From an uncultured Desulfovibrionaceae bacterium (GTDB lineage: Bacteria > Desulfobacterota > Desulfovibrionia > Desulfovibrionales > Desulfovibrionaceae), in the NCBI GenBank assembly GCA_944325195.1, contig CALUZB010000004.1:310001-374000 (forward strand): a stretch of DNA of 64,000 nt, read 5' to 3'. The translations under genes were made by a program, and so were the position numbers. Shown one piece after another: positions 19,151 through 23,176 of the stretch. Below the pieces are notes generated by a model. That model had not been told where the DNA came from. It was given only the letters and a program-made list of their open reading frames with translations, and did no database searches. Position 1 is the first letter of the stretch. Every line of letters begins with the position of its first letter.

Positions 19151-20854
19151 TCATTTCTGATATTCCGCGCTCACCATGTCCTTACGTAATGCCTGCACCG
19201 TAAGTTTAGGAGTTTTATTCTGCCGCAACAGACTTACATGATGACTGAACTTGTCAAGGCAGGTTTGCATTTCCTTATTATGCCACTCTTGTCCGGCAAT
19301 ATCCTCGCGAACCAGTTTCATCTGCTTATCAAACATCTCTTGGGGATAAATGGCGCTTTCTTCCACCAGAATGCGATAGTGGCCCACCGTGGTGTCGATT
19401 GCCTGGTCGAGCATCTTGATAAATTCGCGATGTTCGCCAATGCTTTTCTCCAGCTTCTCCCTTTGAGCTGTGTCCTTGATTTTAGCTTTCTGGTCATTGA
19501 GGGCTGCAAGCTGGTTGGATAACGTTTTTCTGCGGATAAAAAAGTTACGTATGCTGCCCACTGTGTGCATGGCGCTGCGAACATGCCAGCCGGCCGCTTT
19601 CTCCTGCTGACGTTCCAAAGCGATGTTATTGTCCTTGATCACCCCGCGCAAAGCGGTAAGCATAGCTTTTTCCTTATCGCTCTGTGCCTCGGCAAGCAAG
19701 CGGTCAACTTCAGCCAGCGGATCGCGAGTGGTATCGAACCTGAACGGGGAATGGGCGCCAACTCTGTCCCATTCCCGGCGCAGGGCTTCAGGCTGGTTGC
19801 CCCCCGGCGTATTTATGCCTGAAATTACAGGGCGAAAGCCAAGATCGCGTGCTTTATTGGGTCCGGTTGTTACATAAAAGGCAACCTCTTCCCGCCGCCC
19901 CGGCATAATTTCGCTGAGCCCGGTCATAAAACTGCCTCCCTTGCGCACAAAGCCGCCGGAGGCCCCGCCAAGCCGTCCCCCCAGAGAAAACTGAAATGGG
20001 TCTAGCGTCATTTCAGCCAAATTACCCGGCATGTCATACAGCCCCAGCGGGTTAGGCCGACGGGATCCGATATTTTCCGGTTTTTCCGCTACGCGCGAGC
20101 CGTCGTCCGCCTGAAAAACCGCGAATTCACTGACCGGCAGATCTTTGTCCCGTTCAAATAAATTCTCATTGCGCAACGATTCCAAACTGACCATGTGGCC
20201 GCCTTTGGCGGCATATTCCCATTCCTGCTCTGTGGGAAGACGCAGATAGGCAATATTCTTATCATCGCCCTCAAAATGAGGAAGAGCTCCCGGGTGATTC
20301 GCCAGAAGCCAGTCCATATAGCGCCGGGTAAAGTCAACCGCTTCATACCAGGAAAGCATTGCTTTCGGGCGGGCGGCTTCTGAACTGAGGTTTTGCGGGT
20401 TATCCGGGCACTTGCCCATTACTGCATCCCACTGCAGGTTGCTGACTTCATATTTAGCTATCAGATACAAGGCTTTTCCCTGATAACTGAATTGTTCGGA
20501 TTGCGATGCGCTCTGCAAGATTTTGCGCCAGGCTTCCGGCAGATTCTCCAGGCGGAAAGGCCCGGAAATGCCGTGGGAATATTGCCGGTCATAAAATTCT
20601 TCTCCCTTGCGCTCGCAATCGTCACAGCCGAAACGGGTTTCCAGATCAGACAAGTAGCCGTCCACCGGAACAGCTACTGCCCGGAAAACCATTTGCAGTC
20701 CGCAGGGCATGGGCAGAAGCAGGTCATCGGCAAGCGGCTCCGGGTTATATGTATCTTCCGGATTGACCTTGCCTTTACGTTGCAGACCTTGTCCAAGACA
20801 GAGGCTCGGGGAAAAACAGATGAGCAGGAAAACAAGCAAGAGAAAGCGACGCAT
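19151..20854 (-). CDS. Exported SUMF1-domain protein, TagR-like
   Basis: 567 residues. A signal peptide (RRFLLLVFLLICFSPSLCLG) is followed by a formylglycine-generating-enzyme-like fold (about 120-350): IAKYEVSNLQWDAVMG, LPTEQEWEYAAKGG, LGLYDMPGNLAEMTLDP, LGFRP. The catalytic cysteine pair of true FGE is not seen, so it is probably non-enzymatic. A long helical, coiled-coil-like C-terminal region (about 400-560) is extra compared with TagR. TagR of Pseudomonas is a periplasmic SUMF1 protein working with the TagS-TagT ABC complex and TagQ to activate the kinase PpkA. The ATG at 20854 has TGAGG before it. Last gene of the three-gene set. Confidence 0.82.
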   Translation of the reverse strand: MRRFLLLVFLLICFSPSLCLGQGLQRKGKVNPEDTYNPEPLADDLLLPMPCGLQMVFRAVAVPVDGYLSDLETRFGCDDCERKGEEFYDRQYSHGISGPFRLENLPEAWRKILQSASQSEQFSYQGKALYLIAKYEVSNLQWDAVMGKCPDNPQNLSSEAARPKAMLSWYEAVDFTRRYMDWLLANHPGALPHFEGDDKNIAYLRLPTEQEWEYAAKGGHMVSLESLRNENLFERDKDLPVSEFAVFQADDGSRVAEKPENIGSRRPNPLGLYDMPGNLAEMTLDPFQFSLGGRLGGASGGFVRKGGSFMTGLSEIMPGRREEVAFYVTTGPNKARDLGFRPVISGINTPGGNQPEALRREWDRVGAHSPFRFDTTRDPLAEVDRLLAEAQSDKEKAMLTALRGVIKDNNIALERQQEKAAGWHVRSAMHTVGSIRNFFIRRKTLSNQLAALNDQKAKIKDTAQREKLEKSIGEHREFIKMLDQAIDTTVGHYRILVEESAIYPQEMFDKQMKLVREDIAGQEWHNKEMQTCLDKFSHHVSLLRQNKTPKLTVQALRKDMVSAEYQK

Positions 20855-20866
20855 AAATAACCTCAA

Positions 20867-22102
20867 TTAAACTTCGCGGATCAAAGCAGAAGGCGATATG
20901 CCCACAACCTTACGGCTGGCGGCAAGCGCCCCCAACATCATAATTAGGGTGGCGATTATGATTGAGAGCAAAGCATACCCCGCCCCTAAAGCGCACACTT
21001 GCTCACCCGGCAGTACTTGAGCGGAAAAGGCTCGGTTTATCACTCCCTGGACACAAAAAAGGAGCGCCAGGGAGAGCAGCGAGCCGCACACCCCGGTAAC
21101 AGCGGCCTGCACCAGAGGAAACAGAGCAAGGTGTATGGATTTGAACCCCAGCAGCCTCAGCACTCCCAAAGCGCGTTGCTTGCGCTCCACCTGGGCTAAG
21201 GCCGAGCTGACCGCTGAAGCCAGGAAGCCCCCGCCCACTACCAGCAGCAGGAGCACACTTAAGAAATTGAAGGCCTGGTCAAGTGACTTTACTGATGCTA
21301 TTTCTTCCGCCCGGGTATAAGTTTCAATGCCCTGCTCCTGCAACAACACGTTTAATTTTTCTACTCCGTCCAGATCGCGGGCATACAGCCTGAAGCTGAT
21401 GTAAATCTGCCGCGGCTCTACAGCCTCTCCAGCCCAGTTCAGGCGTGGTACAGAACGTCCATCGCGGTAATTTTCCACTGCTTCCAGAAGTGCCAGCGGG
21501 GCATAGGCAGCATCGCGCTGATCAGCCTCAAGGGGCAAAATGCCTTGCACCTGCAACGGGAAGAACTCCTGTTCATAAACCCCTTGCACGCGTCGTGACA
21601 CCCGTCCTCTGATTACCTGGCCGGGGTTTTCCACACCTAACTTACGCGCGGCTGAAGCACTTAAGATAATCCGGTCTTCTTGCGCAGGGCCCCCGTTGCT
21701 GAGCTCTAACCAATGTTCCAGCAGCGGATCACCCGGTGCGCTGGGAAGCAGATCCACCTTGGTGGCCCGCCCGGTTCCGTTTTCCGGCTCAAGAGGGAAA
21801 AGCTCCAGTTGCGCTGAAATAGAGCGGGTTTGCGGCAGAATAAAGGCTGTATCCGGGTTTGAACGCAGCTTTGCAATCCACTCAAGACTATATTGTCCCA
21901 TACCCACAGGACGGATTTCCAGATTGCGCGGATCAGCCAGCAAACGGTCTGTGAGCGAGCCTACCAGGCCCTGCTGCACCCCCAAAATAACCAGAAGCGG
22001 AAGCATTGCGGCGGCAAGGGCCAGCACCCCACAGGCAGACAGCAGCGCCTCATGACGATAGTCCGCAAGCGCCAAGCGCATGATTGTCATCAACCGTATC
22101 AT
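20867..22102 (-). CDS. ABC transporter permease, FtsX/MacB type (TagS-like)
   Basis: 411 residues: one N-terminal membrane helix (about 15-40), a large extracytoplasmic domain (about 45-270), then three helices with the FtsX motif (SVLLLLVVGGGFLASAVSS, ALGVLRLLGFKSIHLALFPL). Such permeases couple ATP use to mechanical work or lipoprotein movement rather than import. The start overlaps the ATPase stop by four bases (ATGA), showing tight coupling. With the downstream SUMF1 gene the set matches TagT-TagS-TagR. Confidence 0.88.
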   Translation of the reverse strand: MIRLMTIMRLALADYRHEALLSACGVLALAAAMLPLLVILGVQQGLVGSLTDRLLADPRNLEIRPVGMGQYSLEWIAKLRSNPDTAFILPQTRSISAQLELFPLEPENGTGRATKVDLLPSAPGDPLLEHWLELSNGGPAQEDRIILSASAARKLGVENPGQVIRGRVSRRVQGVYEQEFFPLQVQGILPLEADQRDAAYAPLALLEAVENYRDGRSVPRLNWAGEAVEPRQIYISFRLYARDLDGVEKLNVLLQEQGIETYTRAEEIASVKSLDQAFNFLSVLLLLVVGGGFLASAVSSALAQVERKQRALGVLRLLGFKSIHLALFPLVQAAVTGVCGSLLSLALLFCVQGVINRAFSAQVLPGEQVCALGAGYALLSIIIATLIMMLGALAASRKVVGISPSALIREV

Positions 22103-22860
22103 GCTTGTCCGCCTGTGCTTTCATTTCTCCGAACACGGGCATCAAGCACCGCCAAAATTGGGGCGGTGTGTGATTCGGACATCTGAACCTTAATCTGTAA
22201 TTCTCTAAAACCGCTTTCCCTGACCAAATTCCAGTCATGGCTGGATATGACCAAAGCGGCGCCCTGCTTGCGCGTGGAAGAAACAAGCAACGACAACACA
22301 TCTTTGGCAGTAACCGGATCAAGTGCGGAAGTAGGCTCATCGGCCAGCACCAGGGAAGGGTTATGGGCCAAGGCGCGGGCAATAGCTGTGCGTTGGCGCT
22401 CGCCAACGGAAATCTGGTCTATTCTTTTCATCAGCAGGTGAGCTATGTTGAGCCGTTCCGCCAGTTCCGCCAGATGCCCCTCGCCCTCAAGGCCAAGGGC
22501 CCGACGGGAAAGCAGAATGTTGTCGCGCACATTGAGAAAAGGAAGCAAGCCCCCGACCTGCAGAACATACCCAAAGTAGCGGGCGCGGATATCGCCCAGA
22601 CTGTCGATATTTCCCTTCAACCAGGCTTCTTTAACGGAGAAGCCGCTGTTGTCAAAATGCAGCCGGAACTCATCACAACGGTCAGGCTGTAAAATCAACG
22701 CTAAAATATCCAAAGCCGTGCTTTTACCACTGCCGCTGGGCCCTAAGATGGCGACCGTCTCTCCGGCCCTTAGTTCCAACTCCGGGATAAGCAGCTCATA
22801 TCCCCGGCCTTCCGGGCGGGATTTGGAAAGGTTTTTGATTTGAACCAGTGCGTCTGCCAT
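22099..22860 (-). CDS. ABC transporter ATP-binding protein, LolD/MacB type (TagT-like)
   Basis: 253-residue ATPase. Walker A GPSGSGKST at 40-48, signature ISVGERQR at 150-157 (GE in place of the usual GGQ), Walker B VLADEP at 171-176, switch His in SSHDW. It pairs with the FtsX-type permease that overlaps its 3' end. First gene of the three-gene set; the XRE gene upstream lies 52 bp away on the same strand but is of a different kind. Confidence 0.9.
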   Translation of the reverse strand: MADALVQIKNLSKSRPEGRGYELLIPELELRAGETVAILGPSGSGKSTALDILALILQPDRCDEFRLHFDNSGFSVKEAWLKGNIDSLGDIRARYFGYVLQVGGLLPFLNVRDNILLSRRALGLEGEGHLAELAERLNIAHLLMKRIDQISVGERQRTAIARALAHNPSLVLADEPTSALDPVTAKDVLSLLVSSTRKQGAALVISSHDWNLVRESGFRELQIKVQMSESHTAPILAVLDARVRRNESTGGQA

Positions 22861-22912: not shown

Positions 22913-23176
22913 CTACTCAGGTTCATGATTCCTTTTGAAGCGTACCCGTTCCTCTTCTACCTTCTTGAAAAATTCAAGCGGTGAAACATTGAGCGCCTCA
23001 CAAATTGAATAGATCGCGTTCACTGTTGGCTTCTTCTCCCCGCATTCAATCTCCCTCAGATATCGCCTTTCCAAACAAGCAAAGTCGGCTAAGGCTGATT
23101 TTGTCATCCCCTTGTCTTTCCTGAAAATTTCAATCGCATTGCCAAGCGCCTGCGATAAATATGGATACTCTTTCAT
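22913..23176 (-). CDS. XRE-family DNA-binding protein
   Basis: 87 residues with a Cro/CI-type helix-turn-helix: IEIFRKDKGMTKSALADFA, then LREIECGEKKPTVNAIYSICEALNVSPLEFF. It is nearly all domain, so it is probably a dimeric repressor-like protein. No strong ribosome binding site before the ATG at 23176. It is divergent from the zinc-ribbon gene at 23302; the 125 bp between them should hold control sites, and TTGACA occurs at 23200-23205 with TATAAT at 23218-23223, though their spacing is short. Confidence 0.88.
   Translation of the reverse strand: MKEYPYLSQALGNAIEIFRKDKGMTKSALADFACLERRYLREIECGEKKPTVNAIYSICEALNVSPLEFFKKVEEERVRFKRNHEPE

Follow-up and report, generated by a model that had tools for sequence, protein, structure and literature searches.

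A tagT-tagS-tagR-like gene set (tagTSR) lies in a 64,000-nucleotide stretch (the window; positions 310001–374000 of contig C4) of a 2.48-Mb Desulfovibrionaceae draft genome with 27 contigs and 98% completeness. We consider it probable that these genes represent the distal end, now detached, of a conserved Srf-vWA-Tag envelope system, whose operon has been split in this genus and for which we propose a wiring from envelope sensing to SrfB and SrfC. The Srf-vWA-Tag gene set, which combines SrfABC with a kinase-less sensor protein, is widespread and little studied, and it shares its envelope-sensing arm with the H1 type VI secretion system (H1-T6SS) of Pseudomonas. In that system, TagQRST-PpkA senses outer-membrane damage (PMC11881912); PpkA has an extracellular (periplasmic) vWA sensor domain, and an interaction between TagR and the PpkA C-terminal domain has been reported (PMC3224232).

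The three window genes are TagT, TagS, and TagR homologues by sequence, gene order, and fold, as a previous sequence-only reading of this DNA had assigned them. The three open reading frames (ORFs) lie exactly where that reading placed them, with tagT and tagS overlapping by 4 bases (ATGA) and exactly 12 bases separating the tagS stop from the ATG of tagR at position 20854; an alternative TTG start would lengthen the tagR ORF from 567 to 571 amino acids (aa; 19151–20866). Pfam searches (E-values of 1.9e-23 for ABC_tran, 5.2e-8 for FtsX, and 1e-22 for FGE-sulfatase), together with alignments and structural matches, identify a LolD/MacB-type ATPase, an FtsX-type permease, and an exported SUMF1-domain protein without the cysteines of formylglycine-generating enzymes (FGE). 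TagT contains a Walker A motif (GPSGSGKST), a signature motif (SVGERQ), and a Walker B motif (LVLADEPT), and it shares 74.9% identity with the copy of a congener and 44–48% with T6SS-linked TagT of Pseudomonas. In phylogenetic analysis, the window TagS fell in the same clade as the Srf-linked TagS proteins of the family.

The structural model of TagS (predicted local distance difference test score of 92.5) comprised one transmembrane (TM) helix, a large periplasmic domain (about 57–264), and three more TM helices, with LolC/LolE, MacB, and YtrF as the top structural matches, corresponding to the type VII ATP-binding cassette (ABC) fold. TagR has a hydrophobic N-terminus, and its match to FGE structures revealed the SUMF1 fold; the alignment showed that the two active-site cysteines of those enzymes have no equivalent in the window TagR motif RKGGSFMTGLSEIMPGRREE. 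The C-terminal helical region of TagR (model residues 379–544, approximately 170 residues) had been described as an added coiled coil. However, the aligned Srf-linked relatives and the T6SS-linked TagR of Tistrella have the same region, so the coiled coil is an ordinary feature of the family and not an addition.

In relatives, the genes are arranged in the order SrfB-SrfC-Sel1-vWA-TagT-TagS-TagR. The present genome retains SrfB, SrfC, and a kinase-less vWA protein on contig C21, where the order is glycine-zipper lipoprotein, trypsin-like protein, SrfA-like proteins, SrfB, SrfC, Sel1/TM protein, and vWA, followed by unrelated genes. TagS, vWA, and SrfC are each present as one copy in the genome. 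The lipoprotein weakly matches a family that also matches the lipoprotein encoded after tagR in Pseudomonas H1-type clusters. The suggestion that tagTSR forms a stand-alone module is thus not borne out, the vWA protein, the candidate TagQ-like lipoprotein, and SrfABC being its partners on C21.

Co-occurrence analysis of 199 genomes of the family, with p-values that ignore shared ancestry, revealed that TagS tracks vWA and SrfC rather than TssC. TagS was accompanied by vWA in 45 of the 46 genomes encoding it (p = 2e-42), the single exception being 58% complete, and by SrfC in 35 (p = 8e-26). TssC was found in 16/46 TagS genomes versus 33/153 others (p = 0.08), and 30 TagS genomes had no TssC. 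The vWA and TagS genes were adjacent in 43 of the 45 family genomes having both, the exceptions being the present genome and its congener G035, which shows the same break between vWA and tagTSR. The genes directly after vWA were similar in both genomes (FAD-dependent and glycosyltransferase-like, as judged by size and N-terminal sequence), whereas the tagTSR flanks differed. An assembly artefact was considered as an origin of the split and is unlikely, since the two halves are also apart in G035 and the genes that follow vWA there resemble those found here. Pairwise tree-distance correlations of the six proteins ranged from 0.84 to 0.98; these values stem mainly from how closely the species are related and were given no weight as evidence. 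In Ventosimonas gracilis (L163), SrfABC-Sel1-vWA was not followed by TagT or TagS on that strand, which may be a further case of splitting.

A vWA profile built from a 5-row alignment, a 12-row alignment being too diverse, was run against a collection of 84,980 species genomes. Of 354 relatives, we named the loci of the best 80, those most similar to the T6SS-type sequence of Tistrella; the following are therefore counts and not frequencies. SrfB/SrfC was present at 71 of these 80 vWA loci, and a serine/threonine kinase without Srf at 6, one of which (Rahnella, L149) the tree identifies as a Srf-type locus that is truncated. The 80 loci spanned Alpha-, Beta-, and Gammaproteobacteria plus one Ignavibacteriota bin. 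In this bin (Stygiobacter, L101), the Srf-vWA-Tag operon was near-identical to that of Magnetospirillum sulfuroxidans, perhaps because it was transferred recently or because the bin contains misassigned sequence. The srf-vWA-tagTS genes of Methylococcus capsulatus lie in L103. In four loci (L083, L063, L064, and L066), vWA-TagT-TagS-TagR occurred in a third kind of setting, where no SrfBC and no T6SS genes were visible nearby; the neighbour in L083 looked ankyrin-like by eye, and the TagT and TagS parts seemed to be fused in a single ORF in the other three. Among the plasmid records read, complete Srf-vWA-Tag operons were present in Klebsiella, Enterobacter, and Gluconobacter, and plasmid searches with TagS and vWA queries returned identical sets of ten organism groups with identical counts (125 records each). 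Klebsiella plasmids with vWA and TagS homologues comprised L087, the one read, which carried the whole operon, and 113 other records.

For comparison with the H1-T6SS, eleven regions were fetched using a TagS profile over the genus Pseudomonas, and genomes with the H1 gene order stood in for the P. aeruginosa PAO1 proteins. Ten of the eleven regions showed the order TssM-TagF-PP2C-[protein of approximately 1000 aa]-TagT-TagS-TagR, which is that of the H1-T6SS, and the eleventh was a Srf-type operon. The vWA family corresponds to the C-terminal ~620 aa of the ~1000-aa protein, the N-terminal part of which is putatively the PpkA kinase by its position and size; this long frame was broken into pieces in one of the ten regions. 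A glycine-zipper lipoprotein was recognised after TagR in nine of the ten. When the vWA profile was applied to 24 Pseudomonas and related genomes, each contained one copy, and none of the frames exceeded 760 aa, meaning no kinase fusion. In one H1-type cluster (L236), two consecutive genes encode TagT-like ATPases. In the T6SS cluster on pTM1 of Tistrella mobilis, the order was tagF-PP2C-STK-vWA-TagT-TagS-TagR, where STK is a serine/threonine kinase. The vWA-TagT-TagS-TagR portion is shared with the relatives of the window genes, and the Tistrella kinase and vWA are separate adjacent genes. Unlike the window genes, however, the Tistrella set lies inside a T6SS cluster that includes PP2C and FHA, and SrfBC was absent from the 32-kb stretch read.

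Phylogenetic analysis of vWA placed the proteins of the family beside the C-termini of Pseudomonas H1-type vWA (Shimodaira-Hasegawa-like approximate likelihood ratio test, SH-aLRT, 100) and separated them from the Srf-linked vWA found in other Proteobacteria. The module has therefore switched partners at least once; the tree is unrooted and gives no direction of exchange. We tentatively suggest, at somewhat under even confidence, that Srf-vWA-Tag, present in several classes of Proteobacteria, in this anaerobe family, and on Klebsiella plasmids, constitutes a second system for responding to envelope damage that works independently of the T6SS, in which the TagQRST/vWA sensor also used by the H1-T6SS is wired to an actin-like ATPase and a P-loop nucleoside triphosphatase (NTPase) instead of a kinase. 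The sensor would have been exchanged between the two systems, because the vWA proteins of the family group with those of H1-type Pseudomonas clusters and not with other Srf-linked ones.

The genome does contain a T6SS, located on contig C1 and comprising TssA, TssJ, TssK, TssL, TssM, TssF, TssH, VgrG, and two TssC-like genes, and tagTSR on C4 lies outside that cluster. The sequence-only reading had found no Tss, PpkA, PppA, or TagQ gene in the 64 kb. This is correct for the window, where six-frame comparison with TssK, TssM, TssH, DotU, TagF, PP2C, STK, FHA, and glycine-zipper references detected only the three Tag-like genes; it does not extend to the genome, which yielded the tss genes on C1 and a weak TagQ-like match on C21. 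For ppkA, the genome offered only the kinase-less vWA homologue of the PpkA periplasmic half. Neither Pkinase (PF00069) nor FHA (PF00498) had any match across the genome, whereas control genomes were positive for both; because these domains are missing, the PpkA-Fha pathway cannot operate here. PP2C (PppA) was absent from the window and C1, the two sequences searched with the Tistrella PP2C.

These results bear on an alternative in which tagTSR, though dispersed, regulates the C1 T6SS through a modified post-translational mechanism. The genome encodes a T6SS, TagTSR shares homology with T6SS regulators, and the grouping of the family vWA with the H1-type C-termini fits this alternative as well. 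We nevertheless regard it as unlikely in view of the missing Pkinase and FHA domains, the non-significant association between TagS and TssC, and the C1 cluster itself, in which no PP2C, STK, FHA, or Tag gene was detectable with Tistrella references. It had been proposed that a complete T6SS elsewhere would reduce the module to a dispersed member; the module is indeed dispersed and a T6SS is present, but its parent appears to be Srf-vWA-Tag, in a genome without kinase or FHA domains. The C1 cluster (L035–L037) also encodes pentapeptide-repeat proteins in addition to VgrG, and its two TssC-like genes are divergent.

We propose that the Srf-vWA-Tag system has the order [TagQ-like glycine-zipper lipoprotein]-SrfA-SrfB-SrfC-Sel1/TM protein-vWA-TagT-TagS-TagR, with the proximal part through vWA on C21 and tagTSR on C4 in this genome. 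Its likely function is outer-membrane damage sensing coupled to a cytoplasmic SrfB/SrfC machine, the wiring of which we infer as follows. By homology to the tested Pseudomonas system, the TagQ-like lipoprotein, TagR, TagTS, and vWA would together act as an envelope-damage sensor, and SrfA, SrfB, and SrfC would provide the response. Envelope perturbation would be detected by the outer-membrane lipoprotein and periplasmic TagR, while TagTS, as a mechanotransmission ABC unit of the LolCDE/MacB type, would drive a conformational cycle. The TagR signal would be received by the vWA protein, as it is by the PpkA periplasmic domain in Pseudomonas, and relayed via Sel1 and SrfA in the inner membrane to two cytoplasmic proteins, SrfB, with actin/Hsp70-like ATPase motifs, and SrfC, a P-loop NTPase. 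This route would replace Fha phosphorylation leading to the T6SS.

The proposed system resembles the TagQRST-PpkA threonine phosphorylation pathway in having TagT, TagS, and TagR homologues in the same order, together with a homologous vWA sensor and a weakly similar glycine-zipper lipoprotein that here lie elsewhere in the genome. It differs in having no kinase, FHA protein, or T6SS linkage, in being tied to SrfABC in relatives, and in being split into two parts here. If the wiring is correct, the sensor by which Pseudomonas perceives being "stabbed" would be a portable module, many relatives of which would serve SrfABC rather than a T6SS, and SrfABC would gain a testable role in the outer-membrane damage response. 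The split operon without a kinase would also provide a natural experiment on TagTS and vWA function in the absence of phosphorylation.

In the openly accessible literature, the gene neighbourhood was noted in two papers, and none treated the gene set as one system. A srfABC-tagQRST-'ppkA' neighbourhood was recorded in host-associated Desulfovibrio in 2013, with T6SS machinery in only one of those genomes, and it was suggested that PpkA might trigger the export of SrfC as an effector (PMC3608642). In Xenorhabdus stockiae, T6SS-control genes were reported beside srfABC in 2019 (PMC6950479). The gene set is the same as ours, although here tagTSR is detached and the vWA protein has no kinase, and the earlier paper views SrfC as a possible effector and the later one SrfABC as a cytotoxin, not as a conserved signalling unit. 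The first paper also reported tagRST missing from two Desulfovibrio genomes (PMC3608642), for which a split operon is a possible explanation.

Several points weigh against our interpretation. The two halves sit on separate contigs (C21 and C4) of a draft genome, and the TagQ-like identity of the lipoprotein draws on weak similarity (E-values of 1e-14 to 1e-20), a lipobox, and a glycine zipper. Gene order and co-occurrence are what connect SrfABC with TagTSR, and for co-occurrence within a single family shared ancestry is a confounder. Furthermore, vWA-TagTSR without SrfB/SrfC in some relatives indicates that the module can serve something else. Xenorhabdus SrfABC was reported as a cytotoxin, with no obvious fit to a housekeeping envelope machine (PMC6950479), and another native role is therefore possible.

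The separation of tagTSR from its partners both here and in G035, its purifying selection, and the Xre-type gene upstream would also suit a self-contained three-gene envelope sensor independent of vWA and Srf. This seems improbable given that 45 of the 46 TagS genomes keep vWA and that a homologue of the known TagR partner, the PpkA vWA domain, is retained on C21. Less probable still is an ABC exporter of the LolCDE/MacB type that moves a lipoprotein or other substrate with an accessory periplasmic protein. The permease architecture and the ATPase family are those of the type VII ABC proteins LolCDE, MacB, and FtsEX, and LolD was the top NCBIfam model for the window ATPase; however, its score was 117 against a cut-off of 308, and the permease matched no NCBIfam model. 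Unlike those systems, the window set has a single permease gene with TagR and vWA partners, as synteny in relatives also shows, and no MacA-type adaptor or second LolC/LolE gene was found among the neighbouring ORFs. That tagTSR is a decaying, non-functional remnant of an operon that a rearrangement disrupted, as its separation from vWA unlike in relatives outside the genus and the differing flanks of the congeners might suggest, is scarcely credible: the three ORFs are intact and under purifying selection, with ATPase motifs preserved and a ratio of nonsynonymous to synonymous substitution rates (dN/dS) against the congener of ~0.05–0.12, a rough value since dS is near saturation, similar to that of the C21 genes.

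Table 1. Locations of the tagTSR genes, the adjacent ORF, and the candidate partner genes on contig C21 (NBD, nucleotide-binding domain; HTH, helix-turn-helix)
Feature	Location	Strand	Basis or remarks
tagT-like ATPase (LolD/MacB-type NBD), 253 aa	window 22099–22860	minus	ORF call; Pfam ABC_tran
tagS-like FtsX/type VII ABC permease, 411 aa	window 20867–22102	minus	ORF call; Pfam FtsX
tagR-like exported SUMF1-fold protein with C-terminal helical region, 567 aa from ATG	window 19151–20854	minus	
Xre-type HTH ORF, 87 aa	window 22913–23176	minus	PF01381, 2.1e-9
Glycine-zipper lipoprotein, TagQ-like	C21: 81411–82250		Lipobox and glycine zipper; ~6 kb upstream of srfB
SrfA-like proteins; Sel1/TM protein; trypsin-like protein	C21, srf region		
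SrfB	C21, near SrfC/vWA		Actin/Hsp70-type phosphate motif DIGGGT
SrfC	C21: 91659–94235		P-loop motif GPSQAGKS
vWA protein without kinase	C21: 95573–97549		Homologous to periplasmic half of PpkA

The Xre-type ORF ends 52 bases upstream of tagT on the same strand and is a possible local regulator of tagTSR. It was considered as a member of the system and rejected, as no counterpart lies upstream of tagT in G035. Promoter and terminator scans gave results at chance level only, and PADLOC returned generic ATPase matches plus a single weak vWA match. The G+C content was 54% for the tagTSR cassette (19151–22860), 53% for the C21 srf operon, and 48% for the 5-kb flanks of the cassette.

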